Of a DNA stretch of 26,024 bases, positions 1 through 20,882 are shown piece by piece (within the stretch, counting starts at the first letter, position 1; every line of letters begins with the position of its first letter). The stretch is taken from positions 1-26,024 of IMG/VR virus record IMGVR_UViG_3300044742_000079. One strand, written 5' to 3'. The translations under genes and the position numbers were made by a program. Under the pieces are notes generated by a model, which saw only the letters and a program-made list of their open reading frames with translations, was not told the DNA's origin and did no database searches. This DNA is from a virus.

Positions 1-293
1 CCGGCAATCTTCAAGGCCATACCCTTTTTGTAAACCTTGTCCCCGATCTTGAGCTTAGAGGACTTGGCTGCTACCCCACCCTTCTTCTTAGGCGCTTCAG
101 GGTCAACGGCAGGGGTTTGTTCCTCTAGCCGATTAAGCGCATCCTCTACAAGTGCCCCATAGTCATGGCATACACACTGGCAAGGGGCTTCATGGGTAGG
201 TTGGGGGTTAAGGTTAGCCTCAGACTTCTTACGGTACTTGATAATAATGCCACAACCGTTATGGTCGTCAGCGGTACACTGTTTGCTTTCCAT
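1..293 (-). CDS. Small Cys-containing protein, C-terminus cut off by the window edge
   Basis: The reading frame is open from an ATG at 293-291 to the window edge, giving 97 residues with no stop. The N-terminal half has five cysteines: a single one near residue 6, one near residue 14, and a CQCVC cluster around residues 38-42, which suggests a metal site. The second half is charged and ends in a Lys-rich stretch (PKKKGGVAAKSSKLKIGDKVYKKG) where I recognise no domain; the GDKVYKKG part would fit a small beta-barrel but this is weak. The start overlaps the stop of the metalloprotease gene by one base (TAATG), with GAGGGGA 11 bases upstream, so the two are probably translated together. Function unknown. 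Confidence 0.75.
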   Translation of the reverse strand, partial: MESKQCTADDHNGCGIIIKYRKKSEANLNPQPTHEAPCQCVCHDYGALVEDALNRLEEQTPAVDPEAPKKKGGVAAKSSKLKIGDKVYKKGMALKIA

Positions 294-832
294 TAGTGTG
301 CTCCCCTCAAAGCGGCAAACCCATCGAGGTCACCGGACCGCCACGGCAAATCCATTGGCGTTGACGACATTACCTGTACGGTGCTTGTCGGGTGTTGCAA
401 ACCGACGACGTGCCCCATTTCGTGATAAGCGAGCTTCTCGAAGTCGAAGACTTCGGGCGGGTATCCCTGGTTGAAGAAGTTGGCGTTGAAGATGACGATC
501 GCACCCTTGTACTCATCACCGATCCAATGCTGATCGGACCACGCCTGAGCACCCGGGGGACCTGACCAGTTCTCGCCCTGGGCGTACACGAACAGGTCGG
601 TAGCGCCCTGCTCTTCCAGCCACACGTCCTGTCCCGAGGCGGGCTTCTTGGTTGTCTGCCCGTCGTTCGTGTTACCCGACCCCACCCTCGGGCACACATC
701 CTCGATGGCCTGGCGGATAATAAGCCTTTGCTGATCGGAGAAGTGCTGCCAGTTGATCCGGTAATGAATAGGTTTGCCGTTCCAGCTTATAATTCGGTGA
801 TCGCCGGTACGTCTAACTGACCATGTACTCAT
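293..832 (-). CDS. Metzincin-type zinc metalloprotease (matrixin-like)
   Basis: The 179-aa protein carries HEMGHVVGLQH at residues 137-147, an exact HExxHxxGxxH zinc-binding motif, with E138 as the expected catalytic base and H137, H141 and H147 as zinc ligands. M155 in VQVMSS lies 8 residues further on and fits the Met-turn of metzincins. Family knowledge: this clan cleaves peptide bonds in proteins, and matrixin-like (M10/M57) members are usually secreted. No signal peptide or membrane segment is seen here, so it may act in the cell, at lysis, or as a virion part. Length fits a bare catalytic domain without a propeptide. The start has AGGAG 8 bases upstream, and the ATG overlaps the stop of the 42-aa membrane peptide gene. 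Protease class is fairly sure; target is unknown. Confidence 0.85.
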   Translation of the reverse strand: MSTWSVRRTGDHRIISWNGKPIHYRINWQHFSDQQRLIIRQAIEDVCPRVGSGNTNDGQTTKKPASGQDVWLEEQGATDLFVYAQGENWSGPPGAQAWSDQHWIGDEYKGAIVIFNANFFNQGYPPEVFDFEKLAYHEMGHVVGLQHPTSTVQVMSSTPMDLPWRSGDLDGFAALRGAH

Positions 833-957
833 CGGTTAATCTCCTTTAGGATTTCTTCGGTCCGCTTTAGACTTCTATTGGTTGCAACGGTAAACCCAAT
901 AGTTATGAGGATAGACAAAACACTTATGGCAATAGCTAGTAGTAGAATCTCGTTCAT
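829..957 (-). CDS. 42-aa single-pass membrane peptide
   Basis: This short gene starts at an ATG at 957-955 preceded by AAGGGGAAATTGCG, which resembles the ribosome-binding leader of the leftward gene block. Residues 4-25 are a hydrophobic stretch (LLLAIAISVLSILITIGFTV) and residues 27-42 are charged and basic (RSLKRTEEILKEINR), so the tail is probably cytoplasmic by the positive-inside rule. Its stop overlaps the metalloprotease start (ATGA) and its start overlaps the stop of the 38-aa membrane peptide gene. This tight coupling supports a real gene. A holin, spanin-like or membrane-modulating role is possible for a phage peptide of this shape, but nothing in the sequence decides it. Confidence 0.7.
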   Translation of the reverse strand: MNEILLLAIAISVLSILITIGFTVATNRSLKRTEEILKEINR

Positions 958-1070
958 CGCAATTTCCCCTTAAAGTCGTGGATTACGTTAACTGCTGCAT
1001 AGACCAGTAGAGCAAGCGCCACGATAGCTAGAGTGGCACCGAATACAAAGGTAACCGGGTCATTTAGCAT
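954..1070 (-). CDS. 38-aa single-pass membrane peptide
   Basis: The frame ATG 1070-1068 to TGA 956-954 encodes 38 residues. Residues 7-27 are hydrophobic (TFVFGATLAIVALALLVYAAV) and the C-terminus is basic (HDFKGKLR). The start lies inside the end of the 74-aa gene (11-base overlap) and the stop overlaps the next start as ATGA, so it sits between coupled genes exactly as a translated frame would. It is the first of two consecutive one-segment membrane peptides ahead of a metalloprotease. Small hydrophobic phage proteins in such tandem pairs are sometimes holin/antiholin partners; that is inference here. Confidence 0.65.
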   Translation of the reverse strand: MLNDPVTFVFGATLAIVALALLVYAAVNVIHDFKGKLR

Positions 1071-1284
1071 TATACATCTTTCGTTCACAGTATGCCGCTA
1101 TCTCGATTGCCATAGCAGCGTCTACCTCGTGACCGTTTACGACAAACTCATTGTCAAGGCCCCATAGACTCGGCCTACGGGTCCACGATTCAACATATCC
1201 CTCGGCCCGTCCACGCTGTAAGTCTTTGATTGCTCGCATGGTATTGGCGTGGATATCCGGCATTTCTCGGTGCCCAAACGGCAC
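1060..1284 (-). CDS. 74-aa hypothetical protein
   Basis: The start is taken as GTG at 1284 because GAGGGAG lies 9 bases upstream; an internal ATG at residue 8 is the alternative. The protein is mixed helical and charged, with a central ESWTRRPSLWGL segment and a C-terminal amphipathic helix (EVDAAMAIEIAAYCERKM). I recognise no family. It heads the lower leftward group (74-aa protein, two membrane peptides, metalloprotease, cut-off gene), and a candidate extended -10 element at 1318-1326 lies at the right distance to start its transcript. The overlapping frame at 1137-1322 on the same strand is treated as a shadow. Confidence 0.6.
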   Translation of the reverse strand: MPFGHREMPDIHANTMRAIKDLQRGRAEGYVESWTRRPSLWGLDNEFVVNGHEVDAAMAIEIAAYCERKMYNAK

Positions 1285-1317
1285 GGCTCTACTCCCTCTC
1301 TAGGCTCACTTGGAGTG

Positions 1318-1326
1318 ATCATAGCA
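1318..1326 (-). promoter_or_regulatory. Candidate leftward extended -10 promoter (TGCTATGAT)
   Basis: On the minus strand the sequence reads TGCTATGAT, which matches the extended -10 form TGnTATAAT at 8 of 9 positions with the n ignored. Transcription would start near 1310, about 26 bases before the GTG start at 1284. No good -35 box is seen at 16-18 bases, which extended -10 promoters can tolerate. The conserved repeat at 1334-1359 lies where a regulator could act on it. Confidence 0.4.
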
Positions 1327-1333
1327 CGGCACT

Positions 1334-1359
1334 CGACAACCTAAAAGAACGTTTCTCCC
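1334..1359 (-). repeat. Inverted copy of the control-region repeat at 3951-3976
   Basis: Read on the minus strand, this 26-base stretch matches the plus-strand stretch 3951-3976 at 24 of 26 positions. Both contain GAGAAACGTTCT followed by TTAGGTTGTC. The core AACGTT is palindromic. The two copies face each other across the leftward gene block 1391-3824. Confidence 0.7.
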
Positions 1360-1364
1360 TGTGG

Positions 1365-1391
1365 CTAGCCTGCCACTTAGCGTGATTTGGC
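1365..1391 (+). repeat. Direct copy of the control-region repeat at 4366-4392
   Basis: Twenty-seven bases match 4366-4392 at 22 positions; the core is CTGCCACTTAGCGTG at 1370-1384 against CTGCCACTGAGCGTG at 4371-4385. It also forms a small hairpin (GTGGC 1361-1365 with GCCAC 1372-1376). It touches the end of the gene at 1391-2077 and adjoins the repeat at 1334-1359. Confidence 0.6.
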
Positions 1392-2077
1392 TAATCTTCT
1401 GTATGCCGACTATAGGCACTCCACTTAATGTAAAACTGTGAAGACTCATCAAGTAGAAAGACAACCTGTAAAGTCTCTTCGTCGTCATCCCACTTACGGA
1501 TAACCTCTAGCACTTTCTTAGGGTCGTCATCCTGTCCAGCGTGCCAACCACTTTCGTAAGTCTGTGGATTGCCCGGAATGTACTGGACAAACCCTAAGCC
1601 CTCTAGATCGCTCCCTGAGCACCACGTAACGCAGTTAGCGCTATTATTAATGTAGTCCTCTAAGGAACTCTCTAGGTCGCCTCGCAAGCACTCTGAGCAC
1701 ACATACCCGGCATCTTCTACCCATGCTCCATTCATCTTCCATGAGTAACTGTTCTCGACTGTTCGCATTGCCCGGTAGCAGTCAGCACAGTTAGTCCATT
1801 CGTCTAACCATTCAAGGTCGGCACCGACGTTGCTTAGAGCATCGGCCAACCTAACTGGCAGGCTTTCGGCTTTGGTCAAGGGTGGTTCACCATCCCTAGG
1901 GAATCGCTTAGGATTCCAATTACCAAAGACAACCAAACCATTCTCGCTAGACAAACGGTAACCGGGTTCTGCGTAATCGTGGGCGATTTCGGTAACTAGT
2001 TCACCGTCACCGTATTCCTCACCGCACACAGTACGGATAAGACGTTGTGCCTTATCGCTAACAGTAGTTGTAGCCAT
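1391..2077 (-). CDS. 228-aa hypothetical protein with a four-Cys zinc-finger-like site
   Basis: The start ATG 2077-2075 carries the standard leader of this block (AAAGGGGAAACGTA directly before ATG). The most telling feature is NCADC around residues 96-100 and CSEC around residues 127-130, a CxxC pair set that could bind one zinc ion; a third CVTWC follows near residue 148. The protein is acidic and Trp-rich, with a C-terminal beta-rich stretch (LQVVFLLDESSQFYIKW). The N-terminus MATTTV resembles that of the next gene (MATVTL). I recognise no family. It is the last and largest gene of the upper leftward block. Confidence 0.8.
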   Translation of the reverse strand: MATTTVSDKAQRLIRTVCGEEYGDGELVTEIAHDYAEPGYRLSSENGLVVFGNWNPKRFPRDGEPPLTKAESLPVRLADALSNVGADLEWLDEWTNCADCYRAMRTVENSYSWKMNGAWVEDAGYVCSECLRGDLESSLEDYINNSANCVTWCSGSDLEGLGFVQYIPGNPQTYESGWHAGQDDDPKKVLEVIRKWDDDEETLQVVFLLDESSQFYIKWSAYSRHTED

Positions 2078-2167
2078 TACGTTTCCCCTTTACATTGATT
2101 TAGTGATACCTGTTAGCACCACTACCAAACCCACCTAGTTAAAGATGGGTAAGGTACTGATTCTAAC
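2078..2167 (-). promoter_or_regulatory. Intergenic hairpin and conserved ribosome-binding leader (element 6)
   Basis: The leader 2078-2091 reads AAAGGGGAAACGTA before the ATG. Upstream, ACCCACCT 2129-2136 pairs with AGATGGGT 2143-2150 (one G.U pair in the leftward RNA) around a 6-base loop, and GTTAG 2112-2116 can pair with CTAAC 2163-2167 as an outer stem. The irregular core of elements 2, 3 and 5 is not present, so this is a looser member. Confidence 0.55.
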
Positions 2168-2169
2168 TG

Positions 2170-2526
2170 TTAAATCTCTTCCCACGACTCTTGTGACCAT
2201 AGGAAGTATTCGCCATCGTGCCAACCCCAGCTAAAGCCATCGGGAGTAGCAGCGTTTAAAGCCTCTTCTGCCCGGTTGCTTACCCATAGGATTTCTTCCA
2301 ACCTGTCCATATCGATAACAGGGTAAGAAGAATGAGTGTTCTCTGCTTTGAACTCTTCTGGCACTTTGGGAAGCTCACCCATAAAGTCAGTACTGAGCAT
2401 TTCGTCGGTAATCTCGATTTGACGAATAGGTCCGTACTGACCCCAATGGCCATCTACGTAGCAACCTGTTTCCACAGTAGTCTTACTAACGGTAGTGGTT
2501 GTGATATTGAGCGTGACAGTTGCCAT
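2170..2526 (-). CDS. 118-aa acidic hypothetical protein
   Basis: The gene opens with ATG 2526-2524 behind the full block leader. The protein starts with a Thr-rich beta-prone segment (MATVTLNITTTTVSKTT), has an acidic middle, and ends in an aromatic stretch (GFSWGWHDGEYFLWSQESW) that resembles a compact beta fold. No cysteine pair, membrane segment or signal peptide is visible. The similar opening of the 228-aa neighbour (MATTTVSDKA) could mean shared ancestry or just similar translation-start choices. Function unknown. The downstream gap carries element 6, the upstream gap element 5. Confidence 0.75.
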   Translation of the reverse strand: MATVTLNITTTTVSKTTVETGCYVDGHWGQYGPIRQIEITDEMLSTDFMGELPKVPEEFKAENTHSSYPVIDMDRLEEILWVSNRAEEALNAATPDGFSWGWHDGEYFLWSQESWEEI

Positions 2527-2623
2527 TACGTTTCCCCTTTACGTTGTAGTTGTATTGTGTATTGATGTAACCATAGAACCACTAAACACGACATTGTGTT
2601 TAGTAGCTCTAGCTTGCATCAAT
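2527..2623 (-). promoter_or_regulatory. Irregular long intergenic hairpin with conserved core, plus leader (element 5)
   Basis: Outer stem ATTGATG 2561-2567 pairs with CATCAAT 2617-2623; inner stem ACTAAACAC 2581-2589 pairs with GTGTTTAGT 2596-2604 around a 6-base loop. Between them the strands pair as CATAGA/TCTAG with A2573 bulged and C2571 opposite C2613 (a bulged U and a G.G mismatch in the leftward RNA). The leader AAAGGGGAAACGTA is at 2527-2540. No U-run follows the hairpin, so it does not look like a terminator. The outer stem includes the stop codon of the upstream gene. Confidence 0.75.
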
Positions 2624-2759
2624 GCCTAATTAACTCCTTACTTGCTGCTTTCCATGAAAACTCACACCAGCAATACTTGCACCTAAACCATAACCGCTGG
2701 CCTAGGGTCCCCAAGCATTCGGGGTTTGGTGACTCGCAAACTGGACAGTCGTTATCCAT
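2619..2759 (-). CDS. 46-aa zinc-ribbon protein
   Basis: This gene is too short for most gene finders but is well supported. It starts at ATG 2759-2757, overlapping the stop of the 73-aa gene by one base (TAATG), and ends at TGA 2621-2619 just inside the outer stem of element 5. The protein has CPVC at residues 5-8 and CKYC at residues 27-30, the spacing expected of a one-zinc ribbon, with an aromatic strand (LWFR) before the second knuckle. Such ribbons in phages bind nucleic acid or protein partners; no specific role can be named. It has no leader of its own and depends on coupling to the gene upstream. Confidence 0.75.
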   Translation of the reverse strand: MDNDCPVCESPNPECLGTLGQRLWFRCKYCWCEFSWKAASKELIRH

Positions 2760-2980
2760 TAGTTGATCCCCTTAATGCTATCCAAGCTCATTACGCAAGC
2801 TTCCACAAACGTACCGGGCTTGAAATTAGGGTTAGTGTGCTTAAGCTCATCGGTAAACTTTTGGACAAGCTGAACTCGGTTCCGATAGTTGCTTGCGCCA
2901 TCCTCAAAACAAAGCTCAGCAATAACGTCAGCAATAAACTGGAAGTGCTGCCGTGTCATGGTTGGATATTTGTCTTGCAT
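2759..2980 (-). CDS. 73-aa small helical phage protein
   Basis: The start ATG 2980-2978 sits behind the full block leader. The protein reads as two or three amphipathic helices (TRQHFQFIADVIAELCF, then RVQLVQKFTDELKHTNPNF) and ends in VEACVMSL. From general knowledge this pattern, TRxxFxxIAxxI followed by a LxxxFxxxLxxTNPxF segment, recurs in small phage proteins of unknown role; I cannot name the family firmly. It is followed by the 46-aa zinc ribbon with a one-base overlap. Confidence 0.8.
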   Translation of the reverse strand: MQDKYPTMTRQHFQFIADVIAELCFEDGASNYRNRVQLVQKFTDELKHTNPNFKPGTFVEACVMSLDSIKGIN

Positions 2981-3071
2981 TACGTTTCCCCTTTACGTTG
3001 ATTGTCCTACTAGTTAGTAGGTTGCTATTCATAAACCCTAGAGCTTATGAATAGCCATCTAGCAACTAGTA
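2981..3071 (-). promoter_or_regulatory. Long intergenic hairpin plus leader (element 4)
   Basis: GCTATTCATAA 3024-3034 pairs perfectly with TTATGAATAGC 3045-3055 around a 10-base loop, and TACTAGTT 3008-3015 pairs with AACTAGTA 3064-3071 as the outer stem. Between them the leftward RNA has GCUAGAUG opposite AACCUACU, where UAG/CUA can pair; this partly recalls the core of elements 2, 3 and 5. The stop codon of the upstream gene (3066-3068) is inside the outer stem. The leader is at 2981-2994. Confidence 0.7.
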
Positions 3072-3227
3072 ATCTTCAGCGCTCGTACGGTCAACCATCC
3101 TACGCTGATCTTCAGCGTAAATTGGGTTCTCTTCGTAGTCATCTTCGTACTCAGCGCAGTTAGAGCAATATTGCCCCATGTACTCTACTTGAGCGCTACA
3201 CACTCGGCATTCGGGCTTGATCCGCAT
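3066..3227 (-). CDS. 53-aa zinc-ribbon protein with acidic tail
   Basis: The gene runs from ATG 3227-3225, directly behind the block leader, to TAG 3068-3066. Residues 7-10 (CRVC) and 21-24 (CSNC) form a CxxC pair with 10 residues between, the size of a rubredoxin- or ribbon-type knuckle. The second half is acidic (EYEDDYEENPIYAEDQ), which may suit binding to a basic partner. The leader and the hairpins on both sides support translation. It is one of at least four small Cys-pair proteins in this block. Confidence 0.75.
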   Translation of the reverse strand: MRIKPECRVCSAQVEYMGQYCSNCAEYEDDYEENPIYAEDQRRMVDRTSAEDY

Positions 3228-3326
3228 TACGTTTCCCCTTTATTAGTGGTTTGAGTAAACCATAGAACCAACCAGTTAACCAAGCCTTAAGCTCCATTAA
3301 CTGATTGACCCTAGCTGTACTCAAAC
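3228..3326 (-). promoter_or_regulatory. Irregular long intergenic hairpin with conserved core, plus leader (element 3)
   Basis: Outer stem GTTTGAGTA 3249-3257 pairs with TACTCAAAC 3318-3326; inner stem CAGTTAA 3273-3279 pairs with TTAACTG 3297-3303 and extends by further G.U and Watson-Crick pairs. The core has CATAG 3261-3265 opposite CTAG 3311-3314 with A3262 bulged and C3260 opposite C3315, the same irregularities as elements 2 and 5. Leader at 3228-3241. The outer stem differs in sequence from element 5 but still pairs. Confidence 0.75.
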
Positions 3327-3538
3327 TAAGCGAAGTAACCATCGCAGGTTAAATACCGTGTATCCCTGTGCCAATCAACAGTATGTCCACAATCGGCACA
3401 ACAGTCCTCTGTGACAGGATAAAGTGTTCGCCCTAGTCCCCTACAAAATGCACAAGCGTTAGTGACGTTACTACTTGGCATAAAGCCGGTAGAAGTAACT
3501 TGGCCACTACCGTTACAGTTGGGGCAGGTATAATGCAT
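3326..3538 (-). CDS. 70-aa DnaJ-type zinc-finger protein
   Basis: I start this gene at ATG 3538-3536 because the block leader ends there; a longer frame reaching 3580 would run through the leader. Residues 5-12 (CPNCNGSG) and 29-36 (CAFCRGLG) are two CxxCxGxG repeats, the signature of the DnaJ Cys-rich domain, which binds zinc. A third set, CCADCGH, follows near residue 46. Family knowledge: such domains bind unfolded protein or act as small zinc modules; here there is no J domain, so a chaperone role cannot be assumed. Small stand-alone versions are common in phages. Confidence 0.8.
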   Translation of the reverse strand: MHYTCPNCNGSGQVTSTGFMPSSNVTNACAFCRGLGRTLYPVTEDCCADCGHTVDWHRDTRYLTCDGYFA

Positions 3539-3620
3539 TACGTTTCCCCTTTGTTGTGATTGATGTAACCATAAAACCAACCCAGCTACTAACCGGATTG
3601 GCTCTAGCTTGTATCAATCA
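3539..3620 (-). promoter_or_regulatory. Irregular long intergenic hairpin with conserved core, plus leader (element 2)
   Basis: Outer stem TGATTGAT 3557-3564 pairs with ATCAATCA 3613-3620 (which contains the stop codon of the upstream gene). Inner stem ACCAACCC 3576-3583 pairs with GGATTGGC 3595-3602 with two G.U pairs in the leftward RNA. The core repeats the pattern of element 5: A3571 bulged, C3569 opposite C3608, then AA/TT. Leader at 3539-3552. Confidence 0.75.
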
Positions 3621-3824
3621 GTAATTATGTAACTCTTGATCTTTCTTGTACTCATCAAACTCGGCCATGGTGCTTATCGTGCGTTTCATCCATGCACGAT
3701 TCATGGCAACCACTCGCATGGTTCCATCGGGATACTCTTCTACTATCTCGATAGCGTGATAACCCCATGAGTCCAGCTTTTTAGCAACTTGCCTAGCTTG
3801 TGGCTTGGTAAGTGTGTCAGTCAT
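3618..3824 (-). CDS. 68-aa hypothetical protein, first gene of the leftward block
   Basis: The ATG 3824-3822 follows AAAGGGGAAACACA, a variant of the block leader (CACA instead of CGTA). The protein has an N-terminal helix with basic residues (KPQARQVAKKLDSW), a beta strand (AIEIVEEY), then RVVAMNRAW and a Lys-rich end. This alpha-beta-beta outline is compact but I do not recognise a family. As the gene nearest the control region it should be the first expressed in the leftward transcript. Its stop codon lies inside the outer stem of element 2. Confidence 0.7.
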   Translation of the reverse strand: MTDTLTKPQARQVAKKLDSWGYHAIEIVEEYPDGTMRVVAMNRAWMKRTISTMAEFDEYKKDQELHNY

Positions 3825-3918
3825 TGTGTTTCCCCTTTGTTGTTGTTCTTACCTACTCCTACTCACTTATGAGCAGACACAGAGAAGCGGCAACACAGCT
3901 AGGCCATGCCACCGCTTC
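3825..3918 (-). promoter_or_regulatory. Leader and hairpin ahead of the first leftward gene (element 1)
   Basis: The leader 3825-3838 ends in CACA rather than CGTA. Upstream, GAAGCGG 3884-3890 pairs with CCGCTTC 3912-3918, and CTCA/TGAG forms a small stem at 3862-3873. A third perfect stem, TCTGGC 3925-3930 with GCCAGA 3940-3945, lies just beyond. The irregular core of elements 2, 3 and 5 is absent. This gap is the 5' untranslated region of the leftward transcript. Confidence 0.5.
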
Positions 3919-3950
3919 CCCAAGTCTGGCAATAAGGTAGCCAGATAAAG

Positions 3951-3976
3951 GGGAGAAACGTTCTCTTAGGTTGTCA
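3951..3976 (+). repeat. Control-region repeat, plus-strand copy
   Basis: This copy contains GAGAAACGTTCTC (palindromic arms GAGAA/TTCTC around ACG) followed by TTAGGTTGTC. It matches the minus strand of 1334-1359 at 24 of 26 positions. It lies 127 bases upstream of the first leftward gene. Confidence 0.7.
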
Positions 3977-4035
3977 AGGTACTCAGCGCCACACCAGCTA
4001 AGCCGAGATCGTCGGTCCCCCGTTGGGGTGCTAGT

Positions 4036-4075
4036 GCTTACACTTGTTGTGATGTAAGCGTATCATGCCTGTCAA
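4036..4075 (-). promoter_or_regulatory. Inverted repeat next to a leftward TTGACA box
   Basis: GCTTACA 4036-4042 and TGTAAGC 4053-4059 form a perfect 7-bp inverted repeat with a 10-base spacer. On the minus strand TTGACA (4075-4070), a perfect -35 consensus, lies 10 bases upstream of it. No -10 box of fair quality sits 16-18 bases downstream; the inverted repeat occupies that place. This would suit a repressor operator or an activator-dependent leftward promoter. Confidence 0.4.
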
Positions 4076-4171
4076 GTGGTGGATAAGGGTGTTGATGATT
4101 AAGGGTGAATAGCTAAGCGTATTAATAGGTACACATTAACGGTACATCAAACAGTGGCTAAGCGTATTGAT
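4056..4171 (+). repeat. Three AAGCGTAT motifs
   Basis: AAGCGTAT occurs at 4056, 4115 and 4160, and the latter two share a longer form, GCTAAGCGTATTRAT. Spacings are 59 and 45 bases, so they are not a regular iteron array. They could be regulator sites near the leftward promoter. Confidence 0.5.
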
Positions 4172-4202
4172 GAGTGTGTATTAATGTAGTGCATTAGAGG
4201 AT

Positions 4203-4231
4203 AAGGGTATAAGGGGAAGGGTATAAGGGGA
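4203..4231 (+). repeat. 14-bp tandem repeat, two copies
   Basis: AAGGGTATAAGGGGA occurs at 4203-4217 and again at 4217-4231, a period of 14 bases. A third half copy (GGATAAGGGT) lies at 4081-4090 and again at 4199-4208. Purine-rich on this strand. Role unknown. Confidence 0.6.
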
Positions 4232-4274
4232 CAGGTTGGCTGCTTTGTCGGCAGTCCTCACTCACTCGCCCTAT

Positions 4275-4298
4275 TAGGTACAATAGATAGGGTACCTA
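4275..4298 (+). promoter_or_regulatory. Inverted repeat overlapping a TACAAT box
   Basis: TAGGTAC 4275-4281 and GTACCTA 4292-4298 form a perfect 7-bp inverted repeat. TACAAT at 4279-4284 resembles a rightward -10 box, but no -35 box is found at a proper distance. Confidence 0.35.
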
Positions 4299-4340
4299 CT
4301 CATCATATGTACTAGTGATGTGTGGTCGAGGTCACCCAGC

Positions 4341-4377
4341 GTGGCAGCTTGACGTAACCTATCTTCTAGGCTGCCAC
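4341..4377 (+). promoter_or_regulatory. 8-bp perfect hairpin or operator
   Basis: GTGGCAGC 4341-4348 pairs with GCTGCCAC 4370-4377 across a 21-base loop; both arms are next to AGCGTG-type sequence (CCAGC before, TGAGCGTGGG after). The long loop favours a protein site on DNA over an RNA terminator. Confidence 0.4.
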
Positions 4378-4392
4378 TGAGCGTGGGATGGC
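4366..4392 (+). repeat. Control-region direct repeat, second copy
   Basis: Matches 1365-1391 at 22 of 27 positions in the same orientation. It overlaps the right arm of the hairpin at 4341-4377. Confidence 0.6.
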
Positions 4393-4466
4393 AGGGGAGT
4401 GGTGCTCGGGATAGTGAAAGGTTTGACTAGGGCAAGTGCCTAGGCCGCCCCCCTCTGTTATGTATG

Positions 4467-4494
4467 TTCACCTTCACCTATGGTGGGTTACTAT
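4467..4494 (+). promoter_or_regulatory. Candidate rightward promoter for the late genes
   Basis: TTCACC 4467-4472 and TACTAT 4489-4494 match the -35 and -10 consensus at 4 of 6 positions each with a 16-base spacer. The transcript would start near 4502, about 55 bases before the terminase ATG. The match is modest and could be chance. Confidence 0.3.
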
Positions 4495-4556
4495 ATGGGC
4501 AGTATAGTAGTACGCAGTGTACTCTTATCCTATCGTTTTTAGCCCTTAGGATTTCA

Positions 4557-6428
4557 ATGCCTACGGTTACACCTATTCAGAAGAGACGGTTCATCAAGCT
4601 TCGGCAAGAGGGATACTCTATTCGGGCTACCTGTATGAAGTTAGGTGTGTCTTACTCGTGGGGTAAGGCTTTCGATAAGGGGATGAAGAATAACAGTGGA
4701 CAGGAGTACGCTAAGGAGAGGGAGCAAGAGGGTTTTGCTCAGCCGCTAGAGTTTGATGAGCTAACCCCTGAAGTTGTTGAGGCCCTAGAGGATATCCAGG
4801 TCTTCGCTCTCAGGTACTTTGGTATAACCCTGGCCCCGTATCAGGTCAAAGCGGCGAACCTTGTTGTCGAGCTACTGGAAACCCATGACGAAGAGTATGT
4901 GTGTATTAACTGGCCGCCCGGTACAGGAAAGTCAACGTTTACAACCCGAATTTTGACTTCATGGTTAACTTGTAAAAATCGGGCCATTAGAGGTTTGATT
5001 GGTTCGGTGAGTGAACGTTTGGCTAGCAAGTACACGGCGGCGCTTAGGGATGACTTCGAGCGGCCGTACCCGATAGCTGCCTCACTTGCCGATAAGCGGT
5101 CAGGGTTGGTTGAAGATGCCATTTCCTCTATGCCGCTTGACTTTGGAGTGTTCAAAGGCACGGGTATATGGCGGGCCAACGAGTTTAGGATTGTGCTCCC
5201 GGCCGGTATTACAAGTGGTAACAAAGAGCCGACGTGGAGTGCATTCGGAACCGATACAAGCTTCATTGGTACACGGTCGGATATCTGTGTTTGGGACGAC
5301 CCGTGGGACCCGAGAATGAAGGACCCGGATCAGATTGAGGAATACTACCGGCAGTGGGATCAGGTTTGCGAAACGCGCCTTGAACCCGGTGGTTTGTTTC
5401 TACTTCAAATGCAGCGGTTGGCGGCACAGGATGTTTCACGGTATTGCTTGGATAAGAATACGCTGATTATAGATGACGATGGGAATGAGAAATGGAAGAG
5501 TAAGTATCATCATATTAAGTTTCCGGCACACTTTAAAGAGAAGTGCCAGGGGGACCACGGGAGGGACGCAAAAGCCTGGCCCGACGGGTGCCTGCTGTTC
5601 CCTCAGCGCCTCGGGTGGGAGAAGCTAGAAGGGATCAGGCAGGACTCAGAAGAGAACTTCATGGTCACATATCAGCAAGAGGACGTGGACCCTGAGGACG
5701 TGCTGTGTCGGCAACTGTGGATTGATGGCGGGATAGATGATGACGGTTCAATTGTGCCTGGTTGCTGGGATGAGGAACGGGTGCTTGGGGAGATTCCCAC
5801 TGGCCTAACCCGGCCGATCTATTCTTACATGACGGTTGATCCGAGTGGTAGCAAGTTTTGGGCGCTACAATGGTGGGTGTATCACCCGGCCACACAGCAG
5901 CGTTTCCTTGTTGATGTGATCAGGAAAAAGTTACGTGCCCCCAACTTCCTCGGCTACACCCCTAGCACGAAAGAGTACACGGGGATTGCTAACGATTGGG
6001 TGCTTAGAGGCGAGAAAACTAAGTTCCCGATTCGTTGGTTGATTGTCGAACAAAACGCCGCCCAGCGCTACCTGTTGCAATATCAGCATGTGTTGGAATG
6101 GGCACGAGCACATCATGTTCGCATCATCCCCCATGATACATACGGGAATAAGACAGACCCGGATTATGGGGTTATGGCGCTGTTACGTCCGTTGTATAAG
6201 CATGGGCTGGTCCGCTTGCCGGGGGGTGACCGTCAGAGTAAGATACAGTCCCAACACCTAATTAACGAAGTCACACAGTTTCCGGGTGGGGTTTACGAAG
6301 ATCAGACAATGGCCCAATGGTTCGGGGAAAACCGGTTGCCGAGTCTTGTAAAGCGTCAGGAAGCGGATAAGACTCCTAGGCAATGGCGTCCCGACTTCGC
6401 CCATGATCCGTTAGGGGTTTCGGTATGA
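4557..6428 (+). CDS. Terminase large subunit with N-terminal helix-turn-helix
   Basis: This is the ATP-driven DNA packaging motor and nuclease. I start it at ATG 4557 (623 aa), where AGGA lies 6 bases upstream; the frame is open to 4464 but that part encodes an unlikely hydrophobic lead and overlaps the promoter region. From this start, PPGTGKST at residues 120-127 is the Walker A motif and ICVWDD at 243-248 the Walker B with its catalytic acid. The RNase H-like nuclease follows, with candidate metal-binding acids D428 (TVDPSGS), E499 (LIVEQ) and a C-terminal Asp near 613-617. Residues 5-40 (IQKRRFIKLRQEGYS, then CMKLGVSYSWGKAF) read as a helix-turn-helix, a fold usually found in small terminase subunits. 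No separate small subunit gene is visible nearby. Confidence 0.93.
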   Translation: MPTVTPIQKRRFIKLRQEGYSIRATCMKLGVSYSWGKAFDKGMKNNSGQEYAKEREQEGFAQPLEFDELTPEVVEALEDIQVFALRYFGITLAPYQVKAANLVVELLETHDEEYVCINWPPGTGKSTFTTRILTSWLTCKNRAIRGLIGSVSERLASKYTAALRDDFERPYPIAASLADKRSGLVEDAISSMPLDFGVFKGTGIWRANEFRIVLPAGITSGNKEPTWSAFGTDTSFIGTRSDICVWDDPWDPRMKDPDQIEEYYRQWDQVCETRLEPGGLFLLQMQRLAAQDVSRYCLDKNTLIIDDDGNEKWKSKYHHIKFPAHFKEKCQGDHGRDAKAWPDGCLLFPQRLGWEKLEGIRQDSEENFMVTYQQEDVDPEDVLCRQLWIDGGIDDDGSIVPGCWDEERVLGEIPTGLTRPIYSYMTVDPSGSKFWALQWWVYHPATQQRFLVDVIRKKLRAPNFLGYTPSTKEYTGIANDWVLRGEKTKFPIRWLIVEQNAAQRYLLQYQHVLEWARAHHVRIIPHDTYGNKTDPDYGVMALLRPLYKHGLVRLPGGDRQSKIQSQHLINEVTQFPGGVYEDQTMAQWFGENRLPSLVKRQEADKTPRQWRPDFAHDPLGVSV

Positions 6429-19910: not shown

Positions 19911-20882
19911 ATGGCAACTAACACAACTGCTAACCAAACTGCTCATGTTGTAGCGGCTTATGATCAGGCGATGTATATGGCGCTTAGGCCCCATCTGCAT
20001 TTCGATCAGATTGCCGACGTTGAGCCGACAATGCAGACCCAGCCGGGTGCGGTGGTTACTTTCACCTTCAACTCGGACCTTGCTGTCGCTACAACCCCAC
20101 TAGACGAGTCCACTGACGTTTCTCCTGCCACCCTGTCATCGACTACCGCTTCTGTAACCATTCAGGAATACGGTAACGCTGCTGAGGCTACAGAGAAGCT
20201 TCTTGGAGTCGCTTTCGATGCGCCGCCTTTCGATAAGGGCGCTGCTGAGCGAATTGGTTGGAACGCTGGACTTTCCCAGGATGCCATTGCGGCTGCCGTG
20301 CTTTACGGTGGAACCAATGTGATCTACGGAACCGGCGGTACTACCGATCCAACCTCTACAGCCACAATCCAGACTGACGACATTATCACTGCACACGATG
20401 TACGTGTTGCTGTCGCCCGTCTTTACACCCTGTCTGTTCCTACTTGGTCGGATGAGTTTTATCGTGGGTATATCCATCCCCACGTTGCTCTTGACTACCG
20501 AGAGGAAACGGGTGCTGGCAACTGGCGTTCATTCGCTCAGGCTTTTGCTGCTTCCGGTAATGCCTCTACTATGATCAAGGGTTTCCTTGGCGAGTATGAA
20601 GGTGTTGCTTGGATTCAGACTCCCCGAGCGCAGCTTGTTGCTGATGCCGGTTCGGATAACGTTGACCAGTACGGAACCCTTATTGTCGGCCGTCAGGCTC
20701 TCGCTAAGGCGTACTCAAAGGCCGTGTCTGGCCCTCATCCGAATGTCCGAATTCGTCCCCCTGTTGACCGGCTGATGCGTTTCCATTCAGTTGGCTGGTA
20801 CTGGCTTGGTGGATATGGTCGTTTCCGTGAGGATTCAATCATCCGCATCGAGTCCTCTTCCTCAATCGGGGCTAACGTCTAA
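19911..20882 (+). CDS. Major capsid protein, N4-gp56-like
   Basis: The 323-aa product starts 6 bases after GGAAAGGA, a strong ribosome site. It has the outline of an HK97-fold capsid protein: an N-terminal arm (about 1-30), a beta-rich E-loop/spine region with VVTFTFNSDLAVATTPLDE at 48-66 and ASVTIQEYGNAAEATEKL at 79-96, long helical parts (AERIGWNAGLSQDAIAAAVL, about 110-130), and a C-terminal beta strand set (RLMRFHSVGWYWLGGYGRF). The text TIQEYGNAAEATEKL and the following aspartate-rich helix look like the N4-gp56 capsid family. The scaffold immediately upstream supports the call. No N-terminal prohead-protease signal is apparent. Confidence 0.85.
   Translation: MATNTTANQTAHVVAAYDQAMYMALRPHLHFDQIADVEPTMQTQPGAVVTFTFNSDLAVATTPLDESTDVSPATLSSTTASVTIQEYGNAAEATEKLLGVAFDAPPFDKGAAERIGWNAGLSQDAIAAAVLYGGTNVIYGTGGTTDPTSTATIQTDDIITAHDVRVAVARLYTLSVPTWSDEFYRGYIHPHVALDYREETGAGNWRSFAQAFAASGNASTMIKGFLGEYEGVAWIQTPRAQLVADAGSDNVDQYGTLIVGRQALAKAYSKAVSGPHPNVRIRPPVDRLMRFHSVGWYWLGGYGRFREDSIIRIESSSSIGANV

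Follow-up and report, generated by a model that had tools for sequence, protein, structure and literature searches.

The window analysed here, a virus record of 26,024 bases with a GC content of 51%, carries three long imperfect hairpins in the RNA of its leftward early genes, each located between a stop codon and a 17-nt start element. The first-pass annotation had proposed selection on RNA structure, and this is supported, mainly by the strand bias found when whole gaps are folded and by the same architecture in relatives with other sequences. Our favoured reading, which we hold with about even confidence, is that the hairpins may be sites where host RNase III processes a polycistronic early transcript. 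Start-associated repeats have been on record in actinobacteriophages since 2011, and their function was never settled; here, the upstream partner of the start element looks like a structured RNA rather than a DNA site. Streptomyces phages of cluster BF, which are sequenced and can be cultured, have this architecture too, so that RNase III-type processing of phage early messages, with T7-like coliphages as its best-known case, is directly testable in an actinobacterium. The exact core is represented by three copies in one phage.

The terminase large subunit is encoded by a rightward gene at 4557–6428 (PHROG 38) and the major head protein by a rightward gene at 19911–20882 (PHROG 1357). The head protein is 35–42% identical to those of Streptomyces phages of the subfamily Beephvirinae, and phages of this type are podoviruses of actinobacteriophage cluster BF (PMC9753666, PMC13097060). 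Small leftward genes form a block to the left of the terminase gene, an arrangement that is also present in the relatives. Single-protein pattern scans with the terminase, the capsid and a 228-aa protein found no close relatives, and blastn against phages gave no meaningful match with the region or hairpin 1 as the query. The features of the block are collected in Table 1; its 70-aa gene shows a weak DnaJ-type zinc-ribbon likeness, under the Pfam cut-off.

Table 1. Genes, start elements and hairpins of the leftward block.
Feature	Coordinates	Strand	Remarks
118-aa gene, downstream of hairpin 1	2170..2526	-	no family match
46-aa cysteine-rich ORF, upstream of hairpin 1	2619..2759	-	stop codon inside hairpin 1
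53-aa gene, downstream of hairpin 2	3066..3227	-	no family match
70-aa gene, between hairpin 3 (its upstream side) and hairpin 2 (its downstream side)	3326..3538	-	
68-aa gene, upstream of hairpin 3	3618..3824	-	no family match
Start element AAAGGGGAAACGTAATG	2075..2091	-	exact
Start element AAAGGGGAAACGTAATG	2524..2540	-	exact
Start element AAAGGGGAAACGTAATG	2978..2994	-	exact
Start element AAAGGGGAAACGTAATG	3225..3241	-	exact
Start element AAAGGGGAAACGTAATG	3536..3552	-	exact
Start element variant AAAGGGGAAACACAATG	3822..3838	-	2 mismatches
Hairpin 1	2561..2623	-	ATG at 2526 follows after 34 nt
Hairpin 2	3249..3326	-	ATG at 3227 follows after 21 nt
Hairpin 3	3557..3620	-	ATG at 3538 follows after 18 nt
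Other-core hairpin before gene 2077	2108..2170	-	A.G, 4 bp, G.G, 4 bp, UU/UU, 8 bp, loop
Other-core hairpin before gene 2980	3004..3072	-	10 bp, C.C, 3 bp, AUG/AAC, 14 bp, 4-nt loop
Un-notched hairpin before gene 3824	3881..3921	-	perfect 19 bp, GC-rich

Folding of slightly larger segments confirms long imperfect hairpins in the leftward RNA at exactly the three positions first annotated, with minimum free energies of -31.4, -39.0 and -29.6 kcal/mol for hairpins 1, 2 and 3, z scores of -7.46, -6.16 and -6.75, and 0 of 200 shuffles folding as well. Hairpin 1 consists of a 7-bp lower stem, a C.A mismatch, two A-U pairs, a G.G mismatch, a C-G pair and a bulged U, topped by 16 further upper-stem pairs and a 6-nt loop. 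The build of hairpin 2 is a 9-bp lower stem, C.U, one A-U pair, G.G, C-G, the bulged U and the longest upper stem, and it begins with the final base of the stop codon upstream. Hairpin 3 begins on the upstream stop codon and has an 8-bp lower stem, AC/AC, two A-U pairs, G.G, C-G and the bulged U, followed by 16 further upper-stem pairs. Read inwards, the core common to all three copies is the G.G mismatch, the C-G pair, the bulged U, a U-A and an A-U pair. A descriptor of this arrangement (core with at most three mismatches, inner stem of at least 6 bp, outer stem of at least 6 bp) finds these three hairpins and nothing else in the window, and two matches in total in 40 Markov-1 windows scanned on both strands.

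The core had been described as invariant inside stems that change sequence while staying paired. The G.G mismatch and the bulged U are indeed present in all three copies, but CUAUGG belongs to copies 1 and 2 only, and copy 3 has UUAUGG, in which the pair is retained as G-U. As for the outer stems, copy 2 differs from copies 1 and 3 by two-sided changes at most positions, but the lower stems of copy 1 (ATTGATG/CATCAAT) and copy 3 (TGATTGAT/ATCAATCA) have nearly the same sequence; these two are therefore not independent, copy 2 is the sole independent test of the lower stem, and the three copies alone are insufficient to establish covariation. The inner stems retain their pairing, but the first nine upper-stem pairs differ only one-sidedly, with wobble or Watson–Crick pairing kept, and two-sided changes occur from pair 10 on.

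Hairpins 1–3 are not alone. Six leftward genes between 2077 and 3824 start with the element AAAGGGGAAACGTAATG (five exact, one with two mismatches; 0.05 expected), and a strongly folding gap precedes every one of them. Beside the hairpins, the start element is mostly or half open, with unpaired values of 0.48–0.92, so sequestration of the ribosome site gets no support. At 17 nt, the element exceeds what a ribosome-binding site needs, and AAAGGG(G)AAA forms of it are kept in relatives.

Complete gaps were folded with no hairpin preselected, as the transcribed strand and as its complement. The transcribed strand is more stable in all six gaps of the window, with z scores of -3.5 to -6.6 versus +1.4 to -3.2 for the complement. 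It is also the more stable one in 29 of 35 gaps of four BF phages, compared with 16 of 40 in the coding control. G-U pairs, converted to A.C on the complement, account for much of this polarity, which speaks for RNA and makes a DNA palindrome less likely. The three hairpin gaps hold no sigma-70 promoter. No U-run follows the hairpins, as was annotated at first, and no intrinsic terminator (a GC-rich hairpin and then a U-run) was found on the leftward strand in 1–4500. Rfam 15 gave no family at the gathering threshold and one chance-level match on the other strand (E 0.35).

A lack of related copies elsewhere had been named as a refutation. This applies to the exact core, which was found in no other genome, but not to the architecture, which recurs in cluster BF phages and in an IMG/VR contig, L258. 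The architecture consists of a variable lower stem, a 1x1 mismatch (often G.G), a short helix, a second interruption and a variable upper stem. The exact-core scan of viral contigs gave four contigs, by estimate about the chance number, in which the outer stems are not formed, and the two matches to the core pattern among 37 capsid relatives both lack the fold. A scan for the start element gave 105 contigs with single matches each, which we took as chance, and a generic notch scanner was set aside as too strict.

In addition to the capsid, the cluster BF phages have the same layout as the window and notched hairpins in early-gene gaps. In 12 BF-type genomes, leftward genes carry a start element rich in purines, AAGGG[G]AGAGA, and hairpins often precede it. 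The motif GG-UU-[stem]-UU-CC occurs in the BF genomes 22 times in sense and 0 times in antisense, and GG-U-[stem]-U-CC 10 times and 0 times (some of either being common to near relatives), compared with 0–3 sense and 0–8 antisense for ten control motif pairs. Elements of type A (7 bp, 1x1, 2 bp, 1x1, 3 bp, UU/UU, 10 bp, mostly a UNCG loop) and type B (7, 1x1, 1, 1x1, 6, U.U, 8), both chosen on the sense strand and both with variants, measure 25–26 layers although their notches lie in different places. A covariation count of the BF elements is partly circular, since the sequences were selected for a paired inner stem and the 100% pairing is thus by construction; the motif strand counts and the unselected gap folding are the fairer evidence. 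The BF hairpins differ from those of the window in their UU/UU or U.U notches, mostly UNCG loops and GC-rich stems. The open-licence papers that we found on BF-type phages do not mention the hairpins, and no published description of notched gap hairpins was found among open-licence papers, although an earlier one is possible.

In L258, which is 47,069 bases long and whose terminase shows 39% identity, a start element with AAGGGAG comes shortly after each of three hairpins built from G.G, 2 bp, a tandem mismatch and a free upper stem. Two other relatives, L220 and L223, have AAAGGG(G)A-type start elements, and their gaps are mostly without such hairpins. Some gaps between their leftward early genes instead hold TTGACA-17-TACAGT or TACACT promoters directly ahead of the start element, so the hairpins are one of at least two ways to serve early cistrons.

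The T7 gaps R0.3, R0.5, R1.1, R1.3, R3.8 and R4.7, which hold known RNase III sites, served as a yardstick. Folded in the same way, R0.3, R0.5, R1.3, R3.8 and R4.7 give imperfect hairpins of 22–34 layers that are more stable on the sense strand and begin early in the gap, at an offset of 0–6 nt in the folded segment. The R1 segment as folded gave no hairpin of at least 10 bp, and the R1.1 and R6.5 segments were folded only partly. Side by side, the T7 precedent that had been invoked fits in anatomy: both sets are imperfect hairpins between a stop and the next start, similar in layer number and in sense-strand bias, and those of the window span at least about two helical turns on the transcribed strand. 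Both sets also share an irregular core between sites within variable stems, AAGGUC...GGCCUU in R0.5, R1.1, R1.3 and R4.7 and the G.G mismatch with the bulged U in the three copies here. By this yardstick, a set of phage RNase III sites can have one irregular core in common while the stems around it are free to vary. T7 differs in its other core sequence, in a larger asymmetric internal loop, as in the RNase III substrate R1.1 (PMC6121014), and in having no fixed-sequence start element. Cleavage is shown in T7, whereas the hairpins of the window are known from their sequence and folding.

The nearest described arrangement is the SAS/ESAS of cluster K mycobacteriophages, in which a highly conserved start element lies at non-structural genes, some with a repeated element upstream in the gap (PMC3203893). 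The 13-bp SAS consensus GGGATAGGAGCCC of that work is not matched by the element of the window. The same study found RNA pairing unsupported by the arms of the ESAS (PMC3203893), and the ESAS was later read as a SigA promoter, with SigA-like hexamers, plus an inverted repeat (PMC11373665). In contrast, the elements of the window keep their pairing, on one strand and without a promoter; no SigA-like -35/-10 pair was found in the three upstream elements. In Microbacterium phages of clusters EC, EF, EG and EI, start-associated repeats lie in small gaps 14–30 bp upstream of starts (PMC7302621); these differ in being conserved sequence motifs or perfect short palindromes, with no RNA structure described.

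If the hairpins are RNase III processing sites, the leftward early genes would be transcribed together, and the RNA would fold into an imperfect hairpin of about 25–38 layers at each stop codon or directly behind it. A double-strand-specific endonuclease, most likely host RNase III, would cut this hairpin, giving shorter messages with 3' ends that keep part of it and 5' ends that lie shortly before the following start element. The cut may be placed or restricted by the notches (G.G, bulged U, tandem U.U), and the stem sequence would be free as long as it stays paired. This reading draws on the strong, sense-biased folding of whole gaps, on the location between stop codon and start element and on the likeness to T7. 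Variable loops and stems with fixed notches are what one would expect if the helix is recognised and the loop is not, the lack of sigma-70 promoters in the three gaps fits one long transcript, and the constant layer number of the BF hairpins despite shifted notches counts for processing. Against it, conservation of the exact G.G/bulged-U core goes beyond the expected needs of RNase III, this core was found in no other genome, and several relatives with a like start element have promoters and no such hairpins. No phage-encoded RNase III (PF00636) was found in 13 relatives, with a control positive in 8 of 14 genomes.

Because of this excess conservation, the main rival is an RNA-binding protein, from phage or host, that recognises the G.G/bulge pocket and coordinates the early genes, with the notched helix serving as translational operator or as antitermination signal; we regard this as possible but doubtful. 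An identical small core in three copies, next to other cores in other gaps of the same phage, would suit such a protein, and the lineage-specific notches of the BF phages and L258 have the look of recognition sites that co-evolve. However, two or three core types per genome would require several readers, none was identified among the genes tested, and the uniform length of the BF hairpins better fits a length-measuring dsRNA enzyme. Somewhat more doubtful still is a class of start-associated notched hairpins across related podoviruses, in which the architecture, at about 25 layers or more, is conserved, the notch is lineage-specific and a phage-specific RNA-binding or RNA-cutting factor does the reading, rather than a T7-like host RNase III arrangement.

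Insulators of translation, keeping upstream coding RNA off the start element and parting stop from start with no dedicated reader, would explain why every hairpin lies exactly between the two and why the start element is mostly unpaired, but a plain perfect stem would suffice and the conserved notches are left unexplained, so we consider this unlikely. The notches are equally unexplained if the hairpins shape the early operon as terminators or attenuators, a reading that we rate slightly lower again. Strong hairpins do follow the stop codons, and actinobacterial terminators may lack the U-run that is missing here; yet stopping after nearly every gene would silence those beyond unless each had a promoter, and the three gaps have none. 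It is highly improbable that these are DNA sites, namely promoters or operators with inverted repeats as in the current reading of the ESAS (PMC11373665). Their place relative to a start-associated sequence is the same, but the sense-strand bias arises from G-U pairs, a sigma-70 hexamer pair is absent from the three gaps, and arms that vary with pairing kept are the opposite of how a DNA site behaves.

Elsewhere in the early block, a Peptidase M10 (matrixin-type) metalloprotease encoded at 293–832 (-) exceeds the Pfam cut-off. The 228-aa protein at 1391–2077 (-) belongs to PHROG 35561, with no function assigned, and has relatives in Rhodococcus phage ChewyVIII, Mycobacterium phage DrLupo and a Bacillus phage at 32–38% identity.
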